Shown: piece after piece, positions 3,168-14,484 of the stretch
How the letters are laid out: each line of letters begins with the position of its first letter
How positions within the stretch are numbered: position 1 is the first letter of the stretch
NCBI GenBank assembly: GCA_002919195.1
Contig: PKEU01000091.1
Coordinates: 1-35,561 of the forward strand
Reading direction: 5' to 3'
DNA length: 35,561 nucleotides
Source: a bacterium
GTDB taxonomy: Bacteria > Bacillota > Limnochordia > DTU080 > RSA5
Program-made: the position numbers and the translations under genes
Notes under the pieces: model-generated
Database searches by the model: none
Told to the model about the DNA's origin: nothing
The model's input: the letters and a program-made list of their open reading frames with translations, nothing else

Positions 3168-3358
3168 GCGATCCGCCCCTCTTTCTCAAGGCGCGTTGCC
3201 ACTTTTTTCGGACTCGGGTTCCCCGGGGGCGGGCCCTTCCCCTGCAACGTTTGGCGGGATCCTGTTTCCCCAACCGCTCTTTAGATCAGCCCAACGGAGG
3301 GGAAGGGCCAGGACACACGGAACTTGAGAGAAAACAGCGAGCCTATGGGAGGAACGCC
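3168..3358. other. 191-base divergent intergenic region
   Basis: This must hold promoters for the SDR gene (minus) and the ECF operon (plus). It is GC-rich with runs of G and C near 3215-3240. I could not identify a convincing -35/-10 pair, operator or riboswitch. In particular I see no recognisable FMN, TPP or cobalamin element that would reveal the ECF substrate. Confidence 0.4.
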
Positions 3359-4192
3359 TTGATCACTCTTGAGGACGTCAGCTTCCGATACCCTGGCGCT
3401 GAGACCGCCGCGGTCTCCCGCGTCTCCTTGACCATCGCCCAAGGTGAGCGCGTGAGTATTGTCGGCTCCTCCGGCTCGGGAAAGTCGACGCTCGGCCGCT
3501 TGCTGGCAGGACTCCTCCGGCCGACCAGCGGCAGGATCGTTTACAGCGAAACTTTGGCCCAAGGGAGCGGAGCGAGCGAGGATGGCGAACCCTCGGGTCG
3601 CCGTGTCGCGATCGTCTTTCAAAACCCCGAAACCCAGCTGGTGGGAGCAACGGTCGAGGAAGACGTGGCGCTGGGCCCGGAAAATTTGGGCCTTCCAAGC
3701 CACGAGATTCGCCGGAGGGTCGACTGGGCGTTGGAGATCATGGGGATCGCGCACCTTGCCCGGCGGCCGATCGAAAACCTATCAGGGGGCGAAAAACAGA
3801 GAGTCGCCGTCGCCGGCGCCTTGGCGATGCTCCCCCGCTGCCTGGTCCTCGATGAAGCCAGCGCGATGCTCCATCCGCAGGCAAGGCGCGAGCTGGAGGC
3901 CGCCATCGCCCGGGTCCTCGCCGACGGCGTCGCCGTCGTCCAGATCACACACGACATGGACGAAGCCGCCCGGGCCGATCGCCTTGTGCTGCTGGAGCAA
4001 GGCGAGATCGTTGCCCAAGGCCCTCCCGGGGCTGTCCTCAGCGACCTTGCTCTCCTCTCCCGCACGGGCCTTGAGCCTCCCGAACCCTTGCAACTCGCCG
4101 TGGAACTCCGCGAACGGGGGATCGAGCTTGCAGGGCCCCTTTTCGACGTCTCTCAGCTGGCCGATGCGATTTGTAAGGCGGTGGCGCGGTGA
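3359..4192 (+). CDS. ecfA1: ECF transporter ATPase subunit (EcfA1-like)
   Basis: ABC ATPase of 277 residues. Walker A is GSSGSGKS (36-43), the Q-loop is FQNPETQ (Q88), the ABC signature is LSGGE (141-145), Walker B is CLVLDE (161-166), and the switch histidine lies in THDMDEA. The FQNPETQLVGATVEEDVA stretch is characteristic of energy-coupling-factor ATPases rather than importers with solute-binding proteins. I chose TTG at 3359 because GGGAGGA lies just upstream; an in-frame start at 3251 would add about 36 residues with no homology feel. The gene overlaps the next by four bases (GTGA), indicating translational coupling. With EcfA2 and EcfT it forms the energising half of a vitamin or cofactor transporter; no separate S component is encoded beside it. 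Confidence 0.93.
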   Translation: MITLEDVSFRYPGAETAAVSRVSLTIAQGERVSIVGSSGSGKSTLGRLLAGLLRPTSGRIVYSETLAQGSGASEDGEPSGRRVAIVFQNPETQLVGATVEEDVALGPENLGLPSHEIRRRVDWALEIMGIAHLARRPIENLSGGEKQRVAVAGALAMLPRCLVLDEASAMLHPQARRELEAAIARVLADGVAVVQITHDMDEAARADRLVLLEQGEIVAQGPPGAVLSDLALLSRTGLEPPEPLQLAVELRERGIELAGPLFDVSQLADAICKAVAR

Positions 4193-5061
4193 GCATCGAA
4201 GTGCGTGAGCTCTCTTTCGGTTACGACCCTGCCACACCGGTGCTTCACTCGCTCTCTTTCGCCGTCCAAGCCGGCGAGATGTGCGCTTTGGTCGGCCCCA
4301 GCGGGAGCGGCAAGAGCACCCTTTTGGAGGTAATCGCCGGGTTCCATCGCCCAAGCCGCGGCAGCGTCCGCATCTTTGGCGTCGACCCGGCTGCCAGAGG
4401 GCAGCTCCCCCGCGCCCAGACCATCGTCGCCCTCGTCCTCCAAAACCCCGAACGGCAGTTTTTCAACGAAACCGTGGGCGATGAGGTGGCCTACGCCTTG
4501 CGCCGCCGGAACGTTCCGGCCGCCGAAGTGGAAAAGAGGGTCCACGAGGCGCTAAATGCCGTGGGATGCCCTCCCAGCCGTTACCTCCGACGCTCTCCCT
4601 TTCACCTGTCGGGAGGCGAACAACGGGCTGTCGCCCTGGCGGTGGCGCTGGCCCTTTCGCCCCGGGCCTTGCTCTTGGACGAGCCTACCGCGGGCTTGGA
4701 CCCCGCGACCGGCCGCCGCCTCCTCGATCATCTGGACGCGTGGCGGCGCGCCCACGAGGCGCCGGTGATCCTCGTCTCCCACGACATGGCTCACGTGAGC
4801 CGCAGGGCCGATCGCGTCCTGGCCTTAAAGGACGGTCACGCCGCATTTTTCGGCGAGCCCGGGGAGTTTTTCACACAAGTAGAGCTCCTTGAGCGTTTGG
4901 GACTCGAAGAGCCTCCCGTTCCCCGCCTCCTCCGCACCCTGCGGGAGCGGGGGCTTGAGACCCCTTATCCTCTTTTCGAGGTCCACGAGGCGGCGGCGAG
5001 CCTCGCGCACCTTGTGCGGACGAGCCGGGAAAGCCCGGGGAGAAAGGAAGAGAACCGGTGA
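4189..5061 (+). CDS. ecfA2: ECF transporter ATPase subunit (EcfA2-like)
   Basis: Second ABC ATPase, 290 residues. Walker A is GPSGSGKS (36-43), the Q-loop is LQNPERQFF (Q85), the signature is LSGGE (140-144), Walker B is LLLDEP (161-166) followed by TAGLDP, and the H-loop is in SHDMAHV. LQNPERQFFNETVGDEVAY is an ECF-specific Q-loop sequence. It pairs with the preceding ATPase as the asymmetric EcfA1/A2 dimer that docks on EcfT. The GTG start overlaps the stop of the upstream gene, and its own TGA overlaps the GTG of ecfT. A basic C-terminal tail (about 275-290) is longer than usual. The assignment is firm; the substrate is not. Confidence 0.93.
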   Translation: MSIEVRELSFGYDPATPVLHSLSFAVQAGEMCALVGPSGSGKSTLLEVIAGFHRPSRGSVRIFGVDPAARGQLPRAQTIVALVLQNPERQFFNETVGDEVAYALRRRNVPAAEVEKRVHEALNAVGCPPSRYLRRSPFHLSGGEQRAVALAVALALSPRALLLDEPTAGLDPATGRRLLDHLDAWRRAHEAPVILVSHDMAHVSRRADRVLALKDGHAAFFGEPGEFFTQVELLERLGLEEPPVPRLLRTLRERGLETPYPLFEVHEAAASLAHLVRTSRESPGRKEENR

Positions 5062-5891
5062 GCGAAGGATCCGCAAGAGACGTGCCAGTCAACGGCGCGC
5101 GTCGCCGTGGGGCGGGGGGCTCGCGAGGGTACCTGCACGGGGACGGGATCTTTCACCGCCTCGATCCACGGGTGAAAGTGACGGCGGCGATCGTGCTGCT
5201 CGTCGCCATATTGGGCATCGATACGTGGGCGGGCTACGCGGCCATGGCGGGAGTGCTTGTTTTTGCGGCGGCGCTGGGGAAAATCCCGGGCATGCGCCTC
5301 GTTAAAGCCGTGCAAGGCGTCAGCTTTCTCTTGCTCTTTACGGTGGTGATCAACGGGTTTTTCACGCCCGGCGCAAGCCTCTTTCACCTGGGTCCGGTGG
5401 CCTTGACGTATCAGGGGCTGATGCGGGGACTCGCGCTCGGCTGCCGCTTGGCTCTGGTCGTGGGCGCGATGACCTTGCTCGCCGCGACCACCAAACCCCT
5501 CGATCTAGCCCACGGATTGGGTTGGCTCTTTGGACCCCTTCGTCGCTTCGGCCTTCCCGTGGCGGAGCTCGCCATGGTGACCAGCATCGCGCTCCGCTTT
5601 GTCACGGTTTTGGGCGAAGAGGCCAAACGCATCCGCATCGCCCAGAAAGCCCGGGGCATCGAGATCGGCGACCGCCCGCTCAGCCGGGCCACCTCGCTCG
5701 CGTCGATCGTCGTGCCCCTCTTTGCCGGGGCGCTGAGGCACGCGGACGAGCTGGGCATGGCCTTGGAAGCCAGGGGATACCGCCCCGGCGCCCGGCGGGG
5801 CCGCCTCTATCCGTTGAGCGTCGGCCTGGCCGATCTGCTATGTCTTGTCGCGGCAGTTGCTATCGCGGTGGTCTCTTGGGGTTGGCTCTAA
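5058..5891 (+). CDS. ecfT: ECF transporter transmembrane subunit EcfT
   Basis: Membrane protein of 277 residues with several hydrophobic helices (about 42-58, 61-74, 86-103, 125-143, 170-184, 251-276). The two Ala-Arg-Gly motifs that contact the ATPases are present: KARGIEIG (ARG 198-200) and EARGYRPG (ARG 238-240). The N-terminus has HRLDPRVKV, typical of EcfT (CbiQ family). It scaffolds the ATPases and a substrate-binding S component. The GTG start overlaps ecfA2 by four bases. The stop lies only 18 bases from that of the convergent Gx/NusG-II fusion gene, whose first domain belongs to a membrane fold related to S components and may be a partner (inference). Confidence 0.93.
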   Translation: MSEGSARDVPVNGARRRGAGGSRGYLHGDGIFHRLDPRVKVTAAIVLLVAILGIDTWAGYAAMAGVLVFAAALGKIPGMRLVKAVQGVSFLLLFTVVINGFFTPGASLFHLGPVALTYQGLMRGLALGCRLALVVGAMTLLAATTKPLDLAHGLGWLFGPLRRFGLPVAELAMVTSIALRFVTVLGEEAKRIRIAQKARGIEIGDRPLSRATSLASIVVPLFAGALRHADELGMALEARGYRPGARRGRLYPLSVGLADLLCLVAAVAIAVVSWGWL

Positions 5892-5909
5892 AGCTGCTGG
5901 GAGCGCGAC

Positions 5910-6938
5910 TTAATAGACCAAGGCGTCGTACTCCAACTCAGGCGGCGCGCCGCCGACGACGGTGATGAGCACCTGGGCGGGCACGCAGACGATCGCTTCC
6001 CGGGTATGCTCGATCCAGCCAGTGCCGACGCAGATCTGATCCGGACACGTCGACTCGATGACCCGCACCCGGCCGTGCTCGACCTCGAGAATCAGCCGTT
6101 CGCCGCCCACCGCGACCTCGTGGCGCCCCGGCTGATCCAAGGGCAAGAGGGTGTAGACCTCGCCGCCCACGGTCACTTTGGCCTGGGGATGCGCGACCGC
6201 CGCCGGCTGCCAGCTAAACGCCAAGGCGATGACGAGGCCCATGGCGGCGAGCGCGGCTGCGGTCACCCACGCGGCCCTGCGATGACCTTGGGCTTGTTCC
6301 AACCAGCGAAGCTTTGCCAGGGCTTTTTCAGGCGCGCCCACCGCGATTTTCCCGGCCAAGGAGAGGAGCTTGGTGGCGGTCACGCCGACGAGAGCGCCGC
6401 TGGGCACCGCAAACCACAAAAGGTATGGGAGATAGTAAAACACCTGGGGCTGCCCGAGCAGGGCCCAAGCCACCATGAGCTGGCCGATGTTGTGGGCCGT
6501 GGCCCCTGCCAGGCTTATCGCCACGGGCCCCAGCAACTTCCCTCCCACCTGGAGGAAAAGGGCCATCACCGCCACGCTCAGCACTCCGCCCGCCAAACCA
6601 AAGGCAAAGGCCGGCGTAAAGAGCGTGCCCGTAACCAGAGAACCCACCAGCTGCCGCATCACGGCGAGGAGGAGCGCTTCGCGAAACCCCCAAACGTAGA
6701 GCGCGAAGAGCGAAACCAGGTTGGCAAGCCCGATCTTGGCGCCAGGAATGGGAAGCGAGGGCAGTTGGGCCTCAAAGATATGAAGGGTAGTCGCAAGGGC
6801 CAGGAGCATCCCAAGGCGGGCGATGTCCCTCGCGCCCCAGAGGGAGTCCTTCGCCTGCTCCCAGGCGTCTTGGGCCCAGAGCGCCTCTTGGAGCTGGCCT
6901 TGTATCATTGCTATCCGGCCGGTTTCGGCGCCGTTCAT
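5910..6938 (-). CDS. fusion of Gx-transporter (heptaprenyl diphosphate synthase component I-like) and NusG domain II
   Basis: The protein has two parts. Residues about 40-215 (from the ATG at 6938) form a multi-helix membrane domain of the Gx transporter/Hpre_diP_synt_I type (IPGAKIGLANLVSLFALYVWG, RQLVGSLVTGTLF, GATAHNIGQLMVAW). One more transmembrane helix (about 228-248) leads to an extracytoplasmic NusG domain II (about 255-342) with the characteristic cysteines in CPDQICVGTGWI and IVCVPAQVLI. The two families are normally separate neighbouring genes; I recall them as EetB and EetA of the Listeria electron-transfer locus. As last gene of the rnf operon, downstream of apbE, it probably carries electrons or flavins across the membrane (inference). 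A TTG at 7022 would overlap apbE but has a poor ribosome site, so I chose the ATG. Confidence 0.85.
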   Translation of the reverse strand: MNGAETGRIAMIQGQLQEALWAQDAWEQAKDSLWGARDIARLGMLLALATTLHIFEAQLPSLPIPGAKIGLANLVSLFALYVWGFREALLLAVMRQLVGSLVTGTLFTPAFAFGLAGGVLSVAVMALFLQVGGKLLGPVAISLAGATAHNIGQLMVAWALLGQPQVFYYLPYLLWFAVPSGALVGVTATKLLSLAGKIAVGAPEKALAKLRWLEQAQGHRRAAWVTAAALAAMGLVIALAFSWQPAAVAHPQAKVTVGGEVYTLLPLDQPGRHEVAVGGERLILEVEHGRVRVIESTCPDQICVGTGWIEHTREAIVCVPAQVLITVVGGAPPELEYDALVY

Positions 6939-6999
6939 CTCATCCCACGCCCCTTGCTCGCCCCGTAGCGAGCGACACCCCTTAAAGCGCTCTTGCCGC

Positions 7000-8082
7000 T
7001 CATTCGGCGGGCAACCGCTCAAACCTGTCGACGAGCCCGCTGGTCACGTACACCTTGAGCTCATCGTCGATAAAGACCCCGTCGACGCCGGGCAGCGACT
7101 CAAGGAGCGCCATCCCCTTTTCGACTCCGAGGACAAACGCCGCCGTCGACAGCGCGTCGGCCCAGACGCCGCTGGGGGCCACCACAGTGACGCTGGCCAG
7201 TTCTTGGGCGGGCCAACCCGTCCTGGGGTCGACGATGTGGGAGTAGCGGACTCCCTCGTACTCAAAGTAGCGTTCGTAGTCGCCCGACGTGGCCACCGCC
7301 GCGTCGCTGACACGCAAGATGCCAAAGATCTTGCCCTGGGCCCTCGGGTGCCGGATCCCCAGCCGCCAGGGCGTCCCGTCGGGCCGGGTGCCCAGGGCGT
7401 ACACGTCGCCTCCCAGGTCGATCAGGGCCCGCAAGACGCCTTCTTGGCGCAGCAGGGCCGCGGCGCGATCGGCCCCGTACCCTTTGGCGACAGCGCCGAG
7501 GTCGACGGCTTGTCCTGCGACCGTGAGGCGCACCCGTCCACTTTCCCGGTCAATCTCGATGCCGCGGTAATCGACTCGCTTGAGGACCTCCTCAAGCTCC
7601 CGGGGATCCGGCGGCGCGACCCCGGCCATCGGGGTAGGCGATGACCCTTCCCGGGCTTCCTCGACTTCGATAAAGCCCCAAAGATCGACGACCGGCGCGA
7701 CGGTGGGATCAAAAGCGCCGCCCGAGAGCTCCGCGAGCTTGAGCGCCTCCTGCAGGAGCTCCAGCACCTCGGGCGTCACTTCGACCCAATCTCCGCCTGC
7801 AGCGTTGAGAGCGGAGATATCACCGTAGGGGCGGAAACGGTCAAAGAGCGGCGTCAGCCGGTCCAGCTCGGCCATGACCTTGGCCACTGCCTCCTCGGCC
7901 CGGTCTCCTTCCGCCGTGACGCGCACGACGGTTCCCATGGAAAACCCCAGGCTTTCCGCCCGGCTCGAGGCGCCTACCGCCGCCTCGGGCGGCTGGCGCA
8001 GCAACGTCCATCCCGCCGCGATGATCAATGAAGCGACGGCAACCACCGCCGCCCAGCGTCCAAAACGCCGCCCTTCTTGCAT
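7000..8082 (-). CDS. apbE: FAD:protein FMN transferase ApbE, membrane anchored
   Basis: The 360-residue protein has an N-terminal helix (about 11-24) that anchors it or directs export, then a full ApbE domain: SMGT (48-51), SGGAFDPTV (120-128), DLGAVAKGYGAD (194-205), HIVDPRTGWP with metal-binding D285, and ADALSTAAFVLG (D309). ApbE uses FAD and Mg2+ to attach FMN to a Thr or Ser in proteins on the outer face of the membrane. Its evident clients are encoded in the same operon: RnfG, RnfD and the double FMN-binding protein. I chose the ATG at 8082 because AGGAGG lies at good spacing upstream; the open frame extends a further 24 codons without support. Confidence 0.95.
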   Translation of the reverse strand: MQEGRRFGRWAAVVAVASLIIAAGWTLLRQPPEAAVGASSRAESLGFSMGTVVRVTAEGDRAEEAVAKVMAELDRLTPLFDRFRPYGDISALNAAGGDWVEVTPEVLELLQEALKLAELSGGAFDPTVAPVVDLWGFIEVEEAREGSSPTPMAGVAPPDPRELEEVLKRVDYRGIEIDRESGRVRLTVAGQAVDLGAVAKGYGADRAAALLRQEGVLRALIDLGGDVYALGTRPDGTPWRLGIRHPRAQGKIFGILRVSDAAVATSGDYERYFEYEGVRYSHIVDPRTGWPAQELASVTVVAPSGVWADALSTAAFVLGVEKGMALLESLPGVDGVFIDDELKVYVTSGLVDRFERLPAE

Positions 8083-8175
8083 CCCGTTCGCCTCCTGACT
8101 GCCCCTGCCTTGCCCGACGCCCGTCGTCGCCCCTAGAAAAGAAGGCGAAGCCAAGATCCGCTTCCTTTTCCCGGG

Positions 8176-9018
8176 TTACGACGCGACGCCCACCGCGACA
8201 CCTGCATCCACCAGGATGTTGCGCATCGCGTCCGTCGGGCACTTCTCGACGCACTTGCCGCAGGCGGTGCAGCGGTCCGGATCGACCACCGCAAGGTGCC
8301 CCAGCATCTCGACAGCGCCTTCCTCGCACACCCGCACGCAGATGCCGCAGCCGATGCACCCGACCTCGCAGACCGAACGCACCTGCTTGCCGGGGGCCGT
8401 CGAGACGCAGCGGACAAAGATCTCTTGGGAGGCGTCAAACACGGCGATCACGCCGCGGGGGCAAGCCGCCTCGCAGAGCGCACAGCCCGTGCAGAGGTTT
8501 TCGTTGACGTGGGGCAACCCGTCTTCGCCCATCGTGATCGCGCCAAAGGGGCACACACGGGCGCAGGTGCCAAGGCCCAAGCAGCCAAAGACGCAAGCCT
8601 TGGTCCCCTTGCCGACGAGATCAGCGGCCCGGCAGTCGAGCACCCCTTCGTAGTCGGCCCTCCGGGGAGCAAGGCCCCGGGTGCCGCCGCAGCGGACCCG
8701 CGCCACGCGCCGCGTCCGGTTGACGTTGCCGTTGGACAAGCCCAGGGCTTGGGAAAGCGCCTCAATTTGCGCTATCGTCGCGACAGGGCAATGTTGAGGG
8801 ACCGCCTCACCCCTGGCCAAAGCCTCCGCCATCGCGGCGCAACCGGCCATGCCGCAGGCGCCGCAGTTGTTGCCGGGGAGGAGGTTGGTCAAGAGCTCGA
8901 TCTTTTCATCAGAGCCGTCCCCTTGGGTCTTCTTGGCCATGGTGTAAAGCACGGCTCCCAAGAGGCTGCTGAGTCCCACCATCCCTGCCGTCGCGGCGAC
9001 AATCGTCGTCATGCTCAT
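8176..9018 (-). CDS. rnfB: Rnf complex iron-sulfur subunit RnfB
   Basis: The 280-residue protein has an N-terminal membrane helix (about 5-25), then the Fe-S domain NNCGACGMAGC...CP (about 50-80) of RnfB proteins. After this come several ferredoxin-type cluster motifs: CVFGCLGLGTCARVCP, CTGCALCEAACP, CIGCGICVRVC and CTACGKCVEKCP. This is the long, clostridial form rather than the short proteobacterial one. RnfB takes electrons from reduced ferredoxin at the cytoplasmic side and passes them into the membrane subunits. In the third motif the usual Pro after the last Cys is Glu, a common variation. It lies between rnfA and apbE in the same direction with short gaps. Confidence 0.96.
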   Translation of the reverse strand: MSMTTIVAATAGMVGLSSLLGAVLYTMAKKTQGDGSDEKIELLTNLLPGNNCGACGMAGCAAMAEALARGEAVPQHCPVATIAQIEALSQALGLSNGNVNRTRRVARVRCGGTRGLAPRRADYEGVLDCRAADLVGKGTKACVFGCLGLGTCARVCPFGAITMGEDGLPHVNENLCTGCALCEAACPRGVIAVFDASQEIFVRCVSTAPGKQVRSVCEVGCIGCGICVRVCEEGAVEMLGHLAVVDPDRCTACGKCVEKCPTDAMRNILVDAGVAVGVAS

Positions 9019-9086
9019 CGCCGTTCCCCCTTTCCGTCTCCGTCCGACTCACTGGCCGTCCCCATCCTGCCAAATCGCCCGGCTCG

Positions 9087-9665
9087 TCACGAGCTGAGCC
9101 CGGCAAAGCCCATAAAGCTGAGGGCCATGATGCCGGCGGTGATCAGCGCCACCCCTGTCCCTTGCAGGCTCGGGGGCACGTCGACCAGCTCCAACTCCTC
9201 TCGGATCGCCGCCATCATCGCCATCGCGAGGGTGATGCCGGCGCCCGAGCCGATGGCAAAGACCAGCGATTGGAGGAAGGTGTAGTTTTCGCCGACCATG
9301 AGGAGGGCCAGCCCCAAAATCGCGCAGTTGGTCGTGATCAAGGGGAGGTAAATCCCGAAGGCCCGGTACAGCGCGGGCATAAACTTGCGGATAATCATCT
9401 CCAGCACCTGGACCATCGCCGCGATGACCAGGATGAAGAGGATCGTCTGCAGGTATTCGAGCCCCAAGGGCGCAAGGCCCCAGTGGTAGATCGGCCAGAT
9501 CACCAAGACGCTGGCCACCATCACCGCTGTCACCGCGATCCCCATGCCGACGCCCGCCTTGAGCTCCCGGGTCACGCCCAAAAAGGGGCAGATCCCTAAA
9601 AACCTCGTGAGGAGGAAGTTGTTGACAAGCGCCGCGCCGATAAAGAGCAGCACCAGCTCGGTCAT
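9087..9665 (-). CDS. rnfA: Rnf complex membrane subunit RnfA
   Basis: The 192-residue protein of six hydrophobic segments is typical in length and sequence of RnfA/NqrE. It contains the half-sites FLGICPFLGV and LITTNCAILG, whose cysteines hold the intramembrane [2Fe-2S] cluster shared with RnfE. The ATG overlaps the stop of rnfE in an ATGA. RnfA and RnfE are homologues inserted in opposite orientation. Confidence 0.97.
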   Translation of the reverse strand: MTELVLLFIGAALVNNFLLTRFLGICPFLGVTRELKAGVGMGIAVTAVMVASVLVIWPIYHWGLAPLGLEYLQTILFILVIAAMVQVLEMIIRKFMPALYRAFGIYLPLITTNCAILGLALLMVGENYTFLQSLVFAIGSGAGITLAMAMMAAIREELELVDVPPSLQGTGVALITAGIMALSFMGFAGLSS

Positions 9666-10357
9666 GCCGTTTCTCCCCCTTCAGCGGCCTCCCGCATGCG
9701 CTGCAAGCCCACGCCCGGGATCGTCACTCGCCGGGCGGCTCCCCGCTGCCGCCAGAGCGTGATCACGCCTACCAAGATGCCCATCGTCCAAAAGGCTCCC
9801 GCCGGCGTGCGCATGATGGCCCAGGGAACAAAGGCTGCCGGCATCACGCGCAGGCCAAAGAGCGTCCCGGCGCCCAGGATCTCCCGTATGGCGCCGATCA
9901 GGGTCAGGGCCCAGGTAAACCCGAGGCCGTACCCCAGCGAGTCCGCCAACGCCCTGGCCGGGGTGTGCTGGGCTGCAAAGGACTCGATCCGCCCCAAGAT
10001 GATGCAGTTGACCACGATGAGGGGGATAAACAAGCCCAGCACCTGGTGGATCTCGGGGAAAAAGCCCTTCAAGACCAGCTCGGTGATGGTGACGAGGGTC
10101 GCGACCGCCACGGTGTAGATAGGAATCCGGGTTTGCCTGGGGATCGCCCGCCGGAAAAGGGAGATCAACACGGTCGACCCCACGAGGACAACGGTGGTCG
10201 AAAGCCCCATGGCCATCCCGTACACCGCCGCCGTCGTCACGGCCAGGCTCGGGCACATGCCTAGGGCCGTAAAGAGGGGCGGCGTCCGTTTCCACAGGCC
10301 TTCTGAAAGGTCTTCAAGGTAGACGTTGGGCTTCTTTTCGACCTGGCTGGCCATCAT
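9662..10357 (-). CDS. rnfE: Rnf complex membrane subunit RnfE
   Basis: The 231-residue membrane protein is of the RnfE/NqrD family, with paired motifs ALGMCPSLAVT and LIVVNCIILGR giving the cysteines of the intramembrane Fe-S site, and LTLIGAIREILGAG near the middle. The frame is open upstream to about 10702, but the ATG at 10357 overlaps the TGA of rnfG as ATGA and the conserved N-terminus begins there, so the longer version is not real. Its own stop overlaps the start of rnfA the same way, so these genes are translationally coupled. The C-terminal 25 residues are charged and cytoplasmic. Confidence 0.96.
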   Translation of the reverse strand: MMASQVEKKPNVYLEDLSEGLWKRTPPLFTALGMCPSLAVTTAAVYGMAMGLSTTVVLVGSTVLISLFRRAIPRQTRIPIYTVAVATLVTITELVLKGFFPEIHQVLGLFIPLIVVNCIILGRIESFAAQHTPARALADSLGYGLGFTWALTLIGAIREILGAGTLFGLRVMPAAFVPWAIMRTPAGAFWTMGILVGVITLWRQRGAARRVTIPGVGLQRMREAAEGGETA

Positions 10358-11391
10358 CGCCCACCCCCGTAGCCGCCTACGACCTCCACCATCTCCAAAG
10401 CTCGCTTCACGGCTTTGGTCACGGCCTCCGCCGAGTAGGTGGCCATCGTAATGCCGTCGATGTCGACGCCCACCTGGAGCGGGTCTTGCGGCCCCTTCTG
10501 GAAAAACTGCTGGAGGAAGAAGGGCTCCGCCACCGCGTCGCCAAGACCAGGAGTCTCGTTGTGGGAAAGGACTTCCACGCCCAGCACGGTCACGTCGGCC
10601 GGATCGATGAGCGTGAGCACGCTCACGGGACCGCCGTACCCCTGCTCTTCGACGCGGACCGCCCAAGCGAGCTGGCCGCCCTCTTCGGCCTTGACCAGCC
10701 ACACTTCAGCTGGTTCCAAAGTGACGTCCTCGCCCAGAGCCTCGCGGATCCGCTGGGCGTACCCGGGCTCTGCTCGTCTTGCCGCAGCTTGACCTTGAGC
10801 GCCACCAGTCGGTTGTACCGCGACCTCCACCTCGACGCCCATCGCCGCCAAGACCTCCCGGGCCGACCGCGAGACCGTGTCGGCAACGCCCCGGGTCGAC
10901 ACCGTCGCCCCGCTGATGGCTTCAACGTCTTCGCCGGCTCTAAAGGGATCGGCCAGATCCTTCCCGGCAAATTGACTCAAAAACCACTCTTCCGTGATGG
11001 CCGAGCCTAACCCCGGAGTCTCTTGATGTTCCAAAACCCTGACGCCGACAACTCGCTTTTCGACGGGGTCGACGCCGACGGCGAGGCGAAAGACGTCCCA
11101 GCCTTGCCCTGTCACGTAGTACATGAGCCCGAGGGACTGGTTTTGGTTGTCAAACACCTCGTAGACCGGGGCTTCCACTCCCGGCGGCAGATCATCGATC
11201 TCAACGGCGCTCATCCTGGCCGCCTCCGGGAAGATCGTCCTCAACCCCATCTCGATCACTTCTTGCTCCCGCCGCGCCTCGATGATCGGGTTGATCCAGG
11301 CGTAAAAGACCGAGACGATCAGCCCCGATAGGCCCGCGACCAGGATCAGCGGCAAGAGCATCTCCCACATCTTGTTTCGCCGCGCCGTCAT
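10354..11391 (-). CDS. rnfG: RnfG with two tandem FMN-binding domains
   Basis: At 345 residues this is far longer than the usual RnfG of about 180-220. A membrane helix (about 10-32) is followed by two copies of the extracytoplasmic FMN-binding domain. Copy 1 (about 80-185) has ETPGLG (124-129) and a canonical flavinylation motif S160-G-A-T163. An Ala/Gln/Gly-rich linker (about 190-210) leads to copy 2 (about 212-335) with ETPGLG (279-284) and D312-G-I-T315-M-A-T318, where the motif Gly is Met. RnfG carries covalent FMN added by ApbE and moves electrons between RnfD and the other subunits. The ATG overlaps the stop of rnfD. Whether copy 2 is flavinylated cannot be told from the sequence. Confidence 0.95.
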   Translation of the reverse strand: MTARRNKMWEMLLPLILVAGLSGLIVSVFYAWINPIIEARREQEVIEMGLRTIFPEAARMSAVEIDDLPPGVEAPVYEVFDNQNQSLGLMYYVTGQGWDVFRLAVGVDPVEKRVVGVRVLEHQETPGLGSAITEEWFLSQFAGKDLADPFRAGEDVEAISGATVSTRGVADTVSRSAREVLAAMGVEVEVAVQPTGGAQGQAAARRAEPGYAQRIREALGEDVTLEPAEVWLVKAEEGGQLAWAVRVEEQGYGGPVSVLTLIDPADVTVLGVEVLSHNETPGLGDAVAEPFFLQQFFQKGPQDPLQVGVDIDGITMATYSAEAVTKAVKRALEMVEVVGGYGGGR

Positions 11392-12347
11392 TTCCCGTTC
11401 ACCCCTTTACCGCTGCCTTTGGGCCTTGTCATCATGTTGATCAACGGAGTGGCGCCGTTCATGAGGAGGATGGCAAAGGAGACACCCTCTGGCGCCGCCG
11501 CCCAAAGCCTAATCACCATCGTCAACACGCCGATGCCCACCGCGAAGATCCATTTCCCTTTGCGGGTGATCGGCGAAGTGACCCAGTCCGTCGCCATGAA
11601 AAACGCTCCCAGGAGCAGCCCACCCGACAAGACGTGGGCGATGGGATCGACGCCGGCAAGCAGGGCAAAGATCGCCGTCGTCCCGATAATTCCCACCGGG
11701 ATCCGCCAGTCGACGATCCCCTTCAAGATGAGAGCAATCCCCCCGACCACCAGCGCCACGGCCGACGTTTCTCCCAAAGAGCCGCCCGTCGCCCCGGTCA
11801 CGAGCGACCACAGATCGCTGTAGGTCCCGGTGGCGGCGATCTCGACCAGAGGCGTGGCGCCCGTCACCCCGTCAAAGGGACGAGGCCACGTGCTCATGGG
11901 AGCCGCGAAACTCACGGTGAGAAACGCCCGTCCCACCAGGGCGGGGTTAAACGGGTTGGAGCCCAATCCGCCAAAGGCGTGCTTGCCGATGCCGATGCCG
12001 ACTACGCCGCCCAGAAACGCCATCCAGAGGGGAAGTTGGGGCGGCAGCGTAAAGGCCAGGAGCAGGCCGGTCAGCGCCGCCGAACCGTCCCAAAGGAGGA
12101 TCGGGCGTTTTCGCGCCCACAAGCACAGGGCCTCGGTGATCATGGCCCCGGCGATGCTGGCGACCATCACGCCCAGCGCAGGCCACCCAAAGAGGTAAAC
12201 GGCGACGCCCGCCGCCGGCAAGAGCGAGGCGATCACGGTCAGCATCGCGCTCTGCGTCGAGATCGGGGCGTGGATGTGCGGCCCCGGCGAGACCAACAAA
12301 GAGGCTCCGGGGTCCGTTTCAACGATCTGCGCCGTTGTCTTGGCCAT
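11388..12347 (-). CDS. rnfD: Rnf complex membrane subunit RnfD
   Basis: The 319-residue multi-spanning protein of the RnfD/NqrB family has the conserved SAALTGLLLAFTLPP and KHAFGGLGSNPFNPALVGRA stretches. The flavinylation motif D-G-V-T-G-A-T-P-L (acceptor T165 counted from this ATG) lies in the extracytoplasmic loop. The ATG at 12347 follows the rnfC stop by one base and has GGAAGGGG about eight bases upstream; a GTG at 12356 is in frame but sits directly on that ribosome site. RnfD holds FMN and is thought to form part of the ion path. Confidence 0.95.
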   Translation of the reverse strand: MAKTTAQIVETDPGASLLVSPGPHIHAPISTQSAMLTVIASLLPAAGVAVYLFGWPALGVMVASIAGAMITEALCLWARKRPILLWDGSAALTGLLLAFTLPPQLPLWMAFLGGVVGIGIGKHAFGGLGSNPFNPALVGRAFLTVSFAAPMSTWPRPFDGVTGATPLVEIAATGTYSDLWSLVTGATGGSLGETSAVALVVGGIALILKGIVDWRIPVGIIGTTAIFALLAGVDPIAHVLSGGLLLGAFFMATDWVTSPITRKGKWIFAVGIGVLTMVIRLWAAAPEGVSFAILLMNGATPLINMMTRPKGSGKGVNGK

Positions 12348-12348
12348 C

Positions 12349-13635
12349 TCACGCACCCCTTCCAGCTCGAGCCTTTTTGATGATCTCGCGTTTGCCCATA
12401 CGAATCAGTTGCGTCAAGGGGAGGTCGGCGGGGCACACGTAGCTGCAAAGGCCGCACTCCATGCACTCCGTCGCTCCCAACTCGTCTGCTTTGTCAAACA
12501 ACCCCCGGGAGCTGAGGCGTGCGAGCATCGTCGGCATCAACCCTGCAGGGCAGGCGTCGACGCAACGGCCGCAGCGCAGGCACGCCGATTCCCGGAAATG
12601 GTGGAGTTCCGCCTCCGTGCGGGCCAAGACGCCCGACGTGCCCTTGATGACCGGCACGTCGTCGCTGGCCACCGTGATGCCCATCATGGGCCCGCCCATC
12701 ACGATCTCCCGGGGCCGCTCTCTGAGGCCCACGGCCTTCAAGACATCTTCAAGAGGTGTGCCGATGGGAATCATCAGGTTGCAGGGCTTGGCGACCGCCG
12801 CCCCGGCCACGGTCACAGGCCGCCGGATGAGGGGGATGCCGTCGCGCAGGGCGTCAGCAATCGCGGCCACCGTCGCGACGTTGTGGACCACGACGCCCAC
12901 CGAATCGGGGTATCTTCCGGGCGGTATCTTGCGCCCCGTCACCGCCGGAACGAGCACCCGCTCGCCGCCGTAAGGGTAGCGGGCAGGCAAAGCCCGCACT
13001 TCAAAGTCGCGATACACGTTCGCGAGCTCCCGGTAGAGCCGGATGGCATCGCCCTTGTTGGCCTCGATGGCCAAGATCACCCTCTTGGCCCCCACGGCGT
13101 GGCGAATGGCCCGCATGCCGTAGAGCAGGGCGTCCGTCCGTTCGAGCATCGTGCGGTGATCGCAGGTCAGGACCGGTTCGCACTCGCAGCCGTTGATGAC
13201 GACGGTATCGATGGGCGTCGACGGAGCAAGTTTCACCGCTGCTGGGAACATCGCTCCCCCCATCCCTACGATCCCCGCTTCCTGGACTCGCTGGCGGATC
13301 ACCTCAGGGCTCACCGACTCCGGATCCTTGATCCCAGGAGGCAGCTCCTCCCAGCGGTCCTCCCCGTCGTTTTCCACGATGATCGCCATCGACCAGATGC
13401 CCCACGGGTGCAGCACAGGTTCGATCGCTTTTACCTTGCCCGAGACCGAGCTGTGCACCGGGGCCGAAATGGGACCGTCCGCCCGGGCTAGCAGCGTCCC
13501 GATCCTGACCTCGTCTCCTCTTTTGACGACGGGCACCGCAGGCTTGCCCTGATGCTGCTGCACCGGAAAGCGGAGAAGAGGGGGAGGGTCGAGCGGGCGA
13601 ACGGGGTCGCCTGCCGTCTCCTTGTCATGCGCCAT
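12349..13635 (-). CDS. rnfC: Rnf complex NADH-side subunit RnfC
   Basis: The 428-residue soluble subunit has the N-terminal RnfC barrel-sandwich domain (SAPVHSSVSGKV), the nucleotide and FMN-binding domain (GMGGAMFPAAVKL, INGCECEPVLTCD), the SLBB-like segment, and two C-terminal [4Fe-4S] motifs (CLRCGRCVDACP and CMECGLCSYVCP). RnfC exchanges electrons with NAD(H). The ATG at 13635 has AAAGGGAG upstream; the open frame reaches 13674 but that extension lacks family features. It follows the double FMN-binding gene by 138 bases. Confidence 0.96.
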   Translation of the reverse strand: MAHDKETAGDPVRPLDPPPLLRFPVQQHQGKPAVPVVKRGDEVRIGTLLARADGPISAPVHSSVSGKVKAIEPVLHPWGIWSMAIIVENDGEDRWEELPPGIKDPESVSPEVIRQRVQEAGIVGMGGAMFPAAVKLAPSTPIDTVVINGCECEPVLTCDHRTMLERTDALLYGMRAIRHAVGAKRVILAIEANKGDAIRLYRELANVYRDFEVRALPARYPYGGERVLVPAVTGRKIPPGRYPDSVGVVVHNVATVAAIADALRDGIPLIRRPVTVAGAAVAKPCNLMIPIGTPLEDVLKAVGLRERPREIVMGGPMMGITVASDDVPVIKGTSGVLARTEAELHHFRESACLRCGRCVDACPAGLMPTMLARLSSRGLFDKADELGATECMECGLCSYVCPADLPLTQLIRMGKREIIKKARAGRGA

Positions 13636-13743
13636 TGCGACTCCCTTTCGCCGTTCCCACACTCTCCACCCCATCGCTCGTCCCTCCCAGCGTTAGCCGA
13701 CACAAGTTTCTTAAGCCACCGGATTTCTAACTTTCTCCCGACC

Positions 13744-13766
13744 TCGGCCTTTCCGGGAAAGGCCGA
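13744..13766 (-). other. perfect 11-bp stem-loop between the FMN-binding gene and rnfC
   Basis: Arms TCGGCCTTTCC and GGAAAGGCCGA are exact complements around a single central base. The element starts eight bases past the stop codon of the double FMN-binding gene, in the 138-base gap before rnfC. No T-tract follows on either strand, so a classical intrinsic terminator is unlikely. A partial terminator, or an mRNA processing or stabilising hairpin setting unequal expression of the exported protein and the Rnf subunits, fits better (inference). Confidence 0.55.
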
Positions 13767-13773
13767 TAAACCC

Positions 13774-14484
13774 CTATTTCTCAGCCGACTTCAAAGCGTT
13801 GGCCACTGCCGTCAGCCACTTCTTCGACGACGACGTCGATCCGGTGATCAGGTCGACCTCGACGCTCTGCTGGGCGACGATGGCCTCCTCCAGCTGGCTC
13901 TTTCCTTTCACGGTCGGCTCCCAAGGATAGGTCTCAAAATCCTTCCAAGTGCCGTCGGGCAGCACTTCGTTGAGCGTCACCGCTACGATCCGATCGTTTT
14001 CGATGGTCACCAAAGCGGTGCCGTAGCCGTGGTCGTCCGCGGGCGACCGGCCAAAGAAGGTGCCGTCAAAGTATTTGCCGGTGGTAGCTCCGGAGGCTTT
14101 CTCCAAAGCCCTCCGCACCGCGGTGCGGGCGCTCTCCGAGGTCCCCGTCGCCTGCGCGACGATGTCAACGTCCCAGCTGTTGGCCTCGACAAACCGCTCG
14201 GGCAGCACTTTCATCGCTTCGTGATACTGCTCCCACGGATAGGTCGCCGGCTTGGGATCGCCAAAACCGTTCATCTCCGTCAAGCGCACCTGGACGATCT
14301 TGCCATCCTTGATGGTCACGATCGCCATCAGGTACCCGTGCTGCGTCGCGTCGGAGACAGCCACGTAGGTGCCATCCTGGTACGCCGCCTCCACCGCTCC
14401 GGCCGGCGCTGCGACGACCAGCACGACGCTGAGCGCCGCCGCGAGGATAAAGGCTGTGACCTGTTTGCTCTTCCTCGAGCCCAT
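13774..14484 (-). CDS. exported protein with two FMN-binding domains
   Basis: The 236-residue protein has a signal peptide (basic start, hydrophobic 9-28, AGA-VEAAY) and no lipobox. It contains two FMN-binding repeats: about 35-130 and 137-235, each opening with a DGTY/DGTF motif and an ITIKDGKIVxVxL-type strand pair. The expected flavinylation positions are noncanonical: T113-G-T-S116 in repeat 1 and T214-G-S-T217 in repeat 2. A canonical S131-G-A-T134 lies in the linker. The layout resembles PplA, the double-flavinylated lipoprotein of Listeria extracellular electron transfer, but here it would be released to the periplasm or outside. AGGAGGG precedes the ATG. It leads the operon ending with apbE and the Gx/NusG-II fusion. 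Confidence 0.88.
   Translation of the reverse strand: MGSRKSKQVTAFILAAALSVVLVVAAPAGAVEAAYQDGTYVAVSDATQHGYLMAIVTIKDGKIVQVRLTEMNGFGDPKPATYPWEQYHEAMKVLPERFVEANSWDVDIVAQATGTSESARTAVRRALEKASGATTGKYFDGTFFGRSPADDHGYGTALVTIENDRIVAVTLNEVLPDGTWKDFETYPWEPTVKGKSQLEEAIVAQQSVEVDLITGSTSSSKKWLTAVANALKSAEK

Follow-up and report, generated by a model that had tools for sequence, protein, structure and literature searches.

Gene content of the locus

The window, by which we mean the whole 35,561-nucleotide stretch analysed (contig PKEU01000091.1 of assembly GCA_002919195.1, from a bacterium of the class Limnochordia), carries a gene in which a Gx transporter domain is fused to a NusG_II domain, lying between an ECF cassette and a set of rnf genes. 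The genes identified in this part of the window are the following:

3251..4192, plus strand: EcfA-type ATPase of a second ECF cassette (PF00005; TIGR04520 below its equivalog cut-off)
4189..5061, plus strand: EcfA'-type ATPase of the same cassette (PF00005; TIGR04521 below its equivalog cut-off)
5058..5891, plus strand: EcfT-type transmembrane subunit (PF02361, E 8.9e-35)
5910..6938, minus strand: fusion of Gx (PF07456, EetB-like ECF S-subunit), TM7 and NusG_II (PF07009, EetA-like), 342 aa, assigned by Pfam, AF2 and Foldseek
7000..8154, minus strand: ApbE, FAD:protein FMN transferase (PF02424, 306.5 bits), with an N-terminal membrane anchor read from the sequence
8176..9018, minus strand: RnfB (profile matches)
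9087..9665, minus strand: RnfA (open reading frame; homologous genes in the same place in relatives)
9662..10357, minus strand: RnfE (PF02508, NF009070)
10354..11391, minus strand: RnfG with two FMN_bind domains (PF04205 twice, TIGR01947; motifs SGATVST, then ITMATYS)
11388..12356, minus strand: RnfD with a TGATPL motif (PF03116, TIGR01946)
12349..13674, minus strand: RnfC (TIGR01945)
13774..14484, minus strand: secreted protein with two FMN_bind domains (PF04205 twice)

The minus-strand genes form an operon-like run in which no gap exceeds 99 bases, in the order FMN_bind protein, rnfC, D, G, E, A, B, apbE and fusion. The EcfT gene and the fusion are convergent, with 18 bp between their stop codons. 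The genome encodes one further EcfT, accompanied by ABC ATPases and located next to rplM- and truA-like genes, and at another place a BioY. The rplM/truA neighbourhood is the usual site of the housekeeping ECF module in Bacillota, so the cassette beside the fusion is an additional one. EcfT lies within 6 kb of the fusion in 6 of 20 fused loci and is absent from that distance in the other 14. One fused locus (L002, 10498-12420, minus strand) carries EcfA' and EcfT in one 641-aa frame beside the fusion.

The SGATVST motif of RnfG and the TGATPL motif of RnfD are of the ApbE flavinylation type. RnfG of the window is of double length, a long form also found in most fused relatives that have a separate rnfG. 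Multi-flavinylated RnfG proteins were described by Meheust et al. (2021; PMC8238504) and likewise have more than one FMN_bind domain, but the second flavinylation site of the window's protein is non-canonical. The secreted FMN_bind protein (ATGTSES, TGSTSSS) is a possible additional ApbE substrate, and such a protein also lies upstream of rnfC in L002 (1123-1887, plus strand). No FMN riboswitch or other flavin-linked RNA was found near the operon in 12 loci.

Variation in the rnf genes was also seen among the relatives. RnfD and RnfG homology occurs in one frame at L038:1015-2790, L039:13997-16207, L042:13682-15565 and L045:2845-5370, which suggests that two families of the class have these proteins naturally fused. 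In family f10, a second RnfC-like gene lies directly 3' of the fusion (L040:7822-9216, L043:7365-8906, L044:10049-11584); it scores better than the divergent rnfC that is also present at the start of the operon.

Domain organization of the fused protein

The fusion occupies a single stop-free frame opening with an ATG at 6936-6938, and AAGGGGCGTGGGATGAG, directly 5' of this codon, is a plausible ribosome-binding site. An alternative TTG start at 7022 would give a protein of 370 aa, the form to which the Pfam coordinates below refer; all other residue numbers are those of the 342-aa form unless stated. PF07456 matches residues 73-219 along its entire model (1-147 of 147; 143.7 bits, E 5.4e-42) and PF07009 matches residues 264-357 (model 12-105 of 107; 77.2 bits, E 1.3e-21, with a curated cut-off of 29.6 bits), both scores being well over the curated Pfam cut-offs. 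None of the NCBIfam models matches the fusion.

A linker and a hydrophobic helix at 222-242 (TM7) separate the two domains, and the NusG_II part contains the cysteines C298 (in CPDQIC), C303 and C318 (in CVP). Thus, the EetB-like and EetA-like assignments of the initial annotation, together with its extra membrane helix and its intact CPDQIC and CVP cysteines, are borne out. TM7 would most simply correspond to the N-terminal membrane anchor expected of separate EetA proteins.

The full-length AF2 model is confident in the Gx part only, with a mean pLDDT of 70.6 overall, but the NusG_II part modelled alone reaches a pLDDT of about 88 across its core. Its Foldseek matches are 4ESN (36% identity, TMt 0.86, E 6.3e-6), 4OBI, 3LD7 and Aquifex NusG. 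The standalone NusG_II/DUF1312 proteins 4ESN, 4OBI and 3LD7 thus share fold and sequence with this domain, which is here placed C-terminal to a transporter subunit.

Occurrence and origin of the fusion

PF07456 was found in 62 of the 73 genomes of the class sample and is fused to PF07009 in 13 of them. In the phylum sample of 398 genomes the fusion occurs in 14, six within the class and eight in four other family codes (f48, f51, f57, f142). Over both samples, the domain-architecture search proposed in the initial annotation yields 21 genomes with this fusion: the 13 of the class together with the eight that belong to other phylum families. The closest relative, of a different genus but with the same family code, has the same architecture and gene order at 66-68% identity, and the architecture is retained across very diverged genomes (34-66% identity), the invariant residues of both domains being kept within the fused chains. 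An erroneous joining of two genes might be imagined in an assembly of 219 contigs, but the chance of this is practically nil: both accident and assembly error are ruled out by the 21 genomes sharing the fusion, the other genus among them, and the fusion is also present in the single-contig genomes G008, G019 and G025.

The Gx domain comes first in all fusions, whereas separate adjacent genes are usually ordered NusG_II then Gx; the order of the fusion was seen in separate genes in four cases (family codes f5, f23 and f76). In two unfused loci (L122, L124), five consecutive genes are ordered NusG_II-EcfT-EcfA-EcfA'-Gx, an arrangement that links NusG_II to the complete transporter even where no fusion exists. 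In many class relatives, among them members of f7 and f13, PF07456 and PF07009 are found on separate contigs, so linkage is common but not universal. The two families had been described as usually encoded by separate adjacent genes; this holds as the usual pattern, although much of the class has the two genes non-adjacent.

A careful tree built on the Gx domain places the 20 fused rows on one side of a branch (one change, support 47/65), whereas a quick tree requires three changes of the fusion state. Neither tree is firm, and together they fit one to three origins. Of the 20 fused loci whose context was available, 16 have ApbE immediately upstream of the fusion, invariably accompanied by Rnf genes; the other four (three f51, one f48) have no ApbE or Rnf nearby.

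Cysteines and predicted topology of the NusG_II domain

All three cysteines are present in 20/20 fused and 18/29 separate NusG_II domains, with Asp replacing the second cysteine in the remaining 11. The pattern C-x4-C...C-[VLA]-P is found in all 20 fused rows, and the first and third cysteines are present in all 49 aligned NusG_II domains. Asp, the sole substitute at the second position, is likewise a potential metal ligand. This conservation speaks for a reading in which NusG_II serves as a metal or redox site for the Rnf complex or for ApbE targets, and fusion with the exporter does no more than hold it in position. On the other hand, the first two cysteines are missing from 3LD7, the solved structure of the Listeria homologue, and 4OBI reads C-D-C, so that, with the Asp in 11 of 29 separate domains, the site appears well kept yet dispensable to the family; we regard this alternative as unlikely. 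A NusG_II subtype lacking the usual C-terminal D-[AG]-hydrophobic tail was also seen (L111-L116, L121, L122, L124), with no Rnf or ApbE nearby.

In 11 of 12 fusions the linker between TM6 and TM7 carries a net positive charge. Under the positive-inside rule this linker would be cytosolic and the NusG_II domain outside. Judged from sequence, the NusG_II domain is most likely outward-facing and anchored in the membrane through TM7. The fusion had been said to fix this topology: a six-helix Gx domain, a seventh helix and a positive linker do make an outward NusG_II domain likely, but "fixed" is too strong for an orientation that is only predicted.

The Gx domain and its probable role in ECF-type flavin export

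In the AF2 model the Gx part is an all-helical membrane domain. Its nine best PDB matches in Foldseek are all ECF S-subunits (TMt 0.53-0.70, E 3e-3 to 3e-2). TmRibU, the riboflavin S-subunit, takes the first four places (probability 1.00, TMt 0.64-0.66), with E-values that are modest (3e-3). At positions 43 and 47 of TM1, small residues are invariant across 79 relatives and resemble the AxxxA motif, through which S-subunits contact EcfT.

A precedent for this arrangement is provided by Rivera-Lugo et al. (2023; PMC9973259). According to the sections of that paper on which we draw, Listeria EetB is an FAD-binding protein similar to ECF S-subunits and acts as the S-subunit of an ECF-type FAD exporter that feeds ApbE/FmnB; flavinylation by FmnB, which is ApbE-like and extracytosolic, requires EetB together with the ECF-T protein FmnA and EcfA/A'. 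The same sections count 572 Clostridia genomes in which eetB neighbours Rnf genes and 3,328 genomes in which it adjoins eetA, and report single-chain EetA+EetB proteins in 14 genomes, which those authors use to link EetA and EetB. They further state that deletion of eetA in Listeria gave no EET phenotype and that extracellular flavin was no different in eetB-deficient strains, and their discussion raises how exported FAD gets to ApbE instead of being lost. Our literature search for EetA together with NusG or DUF1312 gave no match.

Compared with what these sections describe, the Listeria system likewise combines a PF07456 S-subunit, an extra ECF-T and an adjoining ApbE (FmnB), and the extra ECF cassette of the window parallels FmnA versus EcfT in Listeria. 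The differences are that EetA is separate in Listeria, whereas here the domains are fused with their own A/A' pair next door, and that the client is the EET pathway in Listeria but would be Rnf here. By analogy, the RnfG/RnfD/ApbE/ECF surroundings fit the Listeria FAD-export model with Rnf as client. As far as these sections go, which state neither domain order nor taxa nor topology, the published single chains contain the same two families in one polypeptide, while here Gx comes first, 21 genomes are covered, and the fusion stands directly behind apbE in most loci.

We consider, with a probability of roughly 0.7, that the fusion serves as the substrate-binding (S) subunit of an ABC exporter of the ECF type whose substrate is FAD; substrate and direction are inferred for the source organism. 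In favour are the full-length PF07456 match, the ECF-S fold, the invariant small residues of TM1, ApbE upstream, the convergent EcfA/A'/T genes next door, which are additional to the housekeeping module, the five-gene runs of L122 and L124, and the RnfG and RnfD motifs. Several points speak against this reading: the ECF cassette is on the opposite strand and outside the operon, 14 of 20 fused loci lack an EcfT within 6 kb, four have neither ApbE nor Rnf close by, the two families are unlinked in many relatives, no FMN riboswitch turned up, and the Foldseek E-values are modest. In this scheme, the fusion and the adjoining EcfA/A'/T cassette would move FAD out of the cytosol; outside, it would serve the neighbouring ApbE as the source of FMN to be linked covalently to RnfG and RnfD, and perhaps also to the FMN_bind protein encoded in this operon. 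The seventh helix would keep the NusG_II domain on the outer face, where it would most likely act at the exit side.

Two other functions of the Gx part were weighed. ECF transporters are mostly importers, and the best fold match is an importer S-subunit, so the complex might instead take up flavin or another vitamin. TmRibU and other ECF S-subunits share the fold of the Gx part but import riboflavin or other vitamins and have no outer NusG_II domain; moreover, the fusion gene sits behind apbE and rnf and Listeria genetics tie PF07456 members to export, which makes import improbable. The Pfam name of PF07456 would make the Gx part heptaprenyl diphosphate synthase component I, and in an Enterococcus locus genes so annotated do adjoin polyprenyl synthase genes. 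This very remote candidate was rejected: the protein is a polytopic membrane protein with the ECF S-subunit fold, EetB binds FAD, and no prenyl synthase was found in the operon or among the genes identified at 3251-14484.

Possible role of the NusG_II domain

Within the FAD-export reading, NusG_II may dock ApbE or receive FAD and hand it over, a guess that we hold at appreciably less than even odds. More tentative still is the idea that the NusG_II (EetA) domain provides the delivery module that ECF flavin export has so far seemed to lack, sitting at the exit, taking FAD from the S-subunit and passing it to ApbE; if true, this would account for the unchanged extracellular flavin of eetB-deficient strains in PMC9973259. 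Since deleting eetA in Listeria left EET without a phenotype, an indispensable hand-off is doubtful in that organism, and any such hand-off may only raise efficiency.

That deletion is also consistent with a fusion that is near neutral, arising when co-expressed neighbours were joined once and then inherited, with NusG_II doing an independent envelope job. The careful tree, in which one event could suffice, and the unlinked genes of many class members point the same way. Against it, the architecture has been kept despite the divergence of its carriers, eetA adjoins eetB in thousands of genomes in the sections of PMC9973259 cited above, and NusG_II also belongs to the five-gene ECF-Gx run, so that we give this alternative a small though real chance. 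The fusion had been taken as direct evidence that the two families act as one machine; what stands is their association by fusion, which is guilt-by-association and less than direct evidence. That annotation had mentioned neither the published export function of EetB nor the adjoining ECF cassette, ApbE and Rnf genes, nor the earlier report of EetA+EetB fusions.

Overall, the fusion is real, conserved and functionally sensible, and is already reported in kind (PMC9973259). What is new here is modest: the Gx-first order, the clustering of the fused proteins, which is weakly supported and compatible with a single origin, and the operon type with NusG_II at one end and Gx at the other. The fusion is, in effect, a natural single-chain construct in which the NusG_II part can be deleted or altered while the exporter stays intact, making the role of EetA directly testable, and the single-contig genomes among its carriers ease the choice of material.
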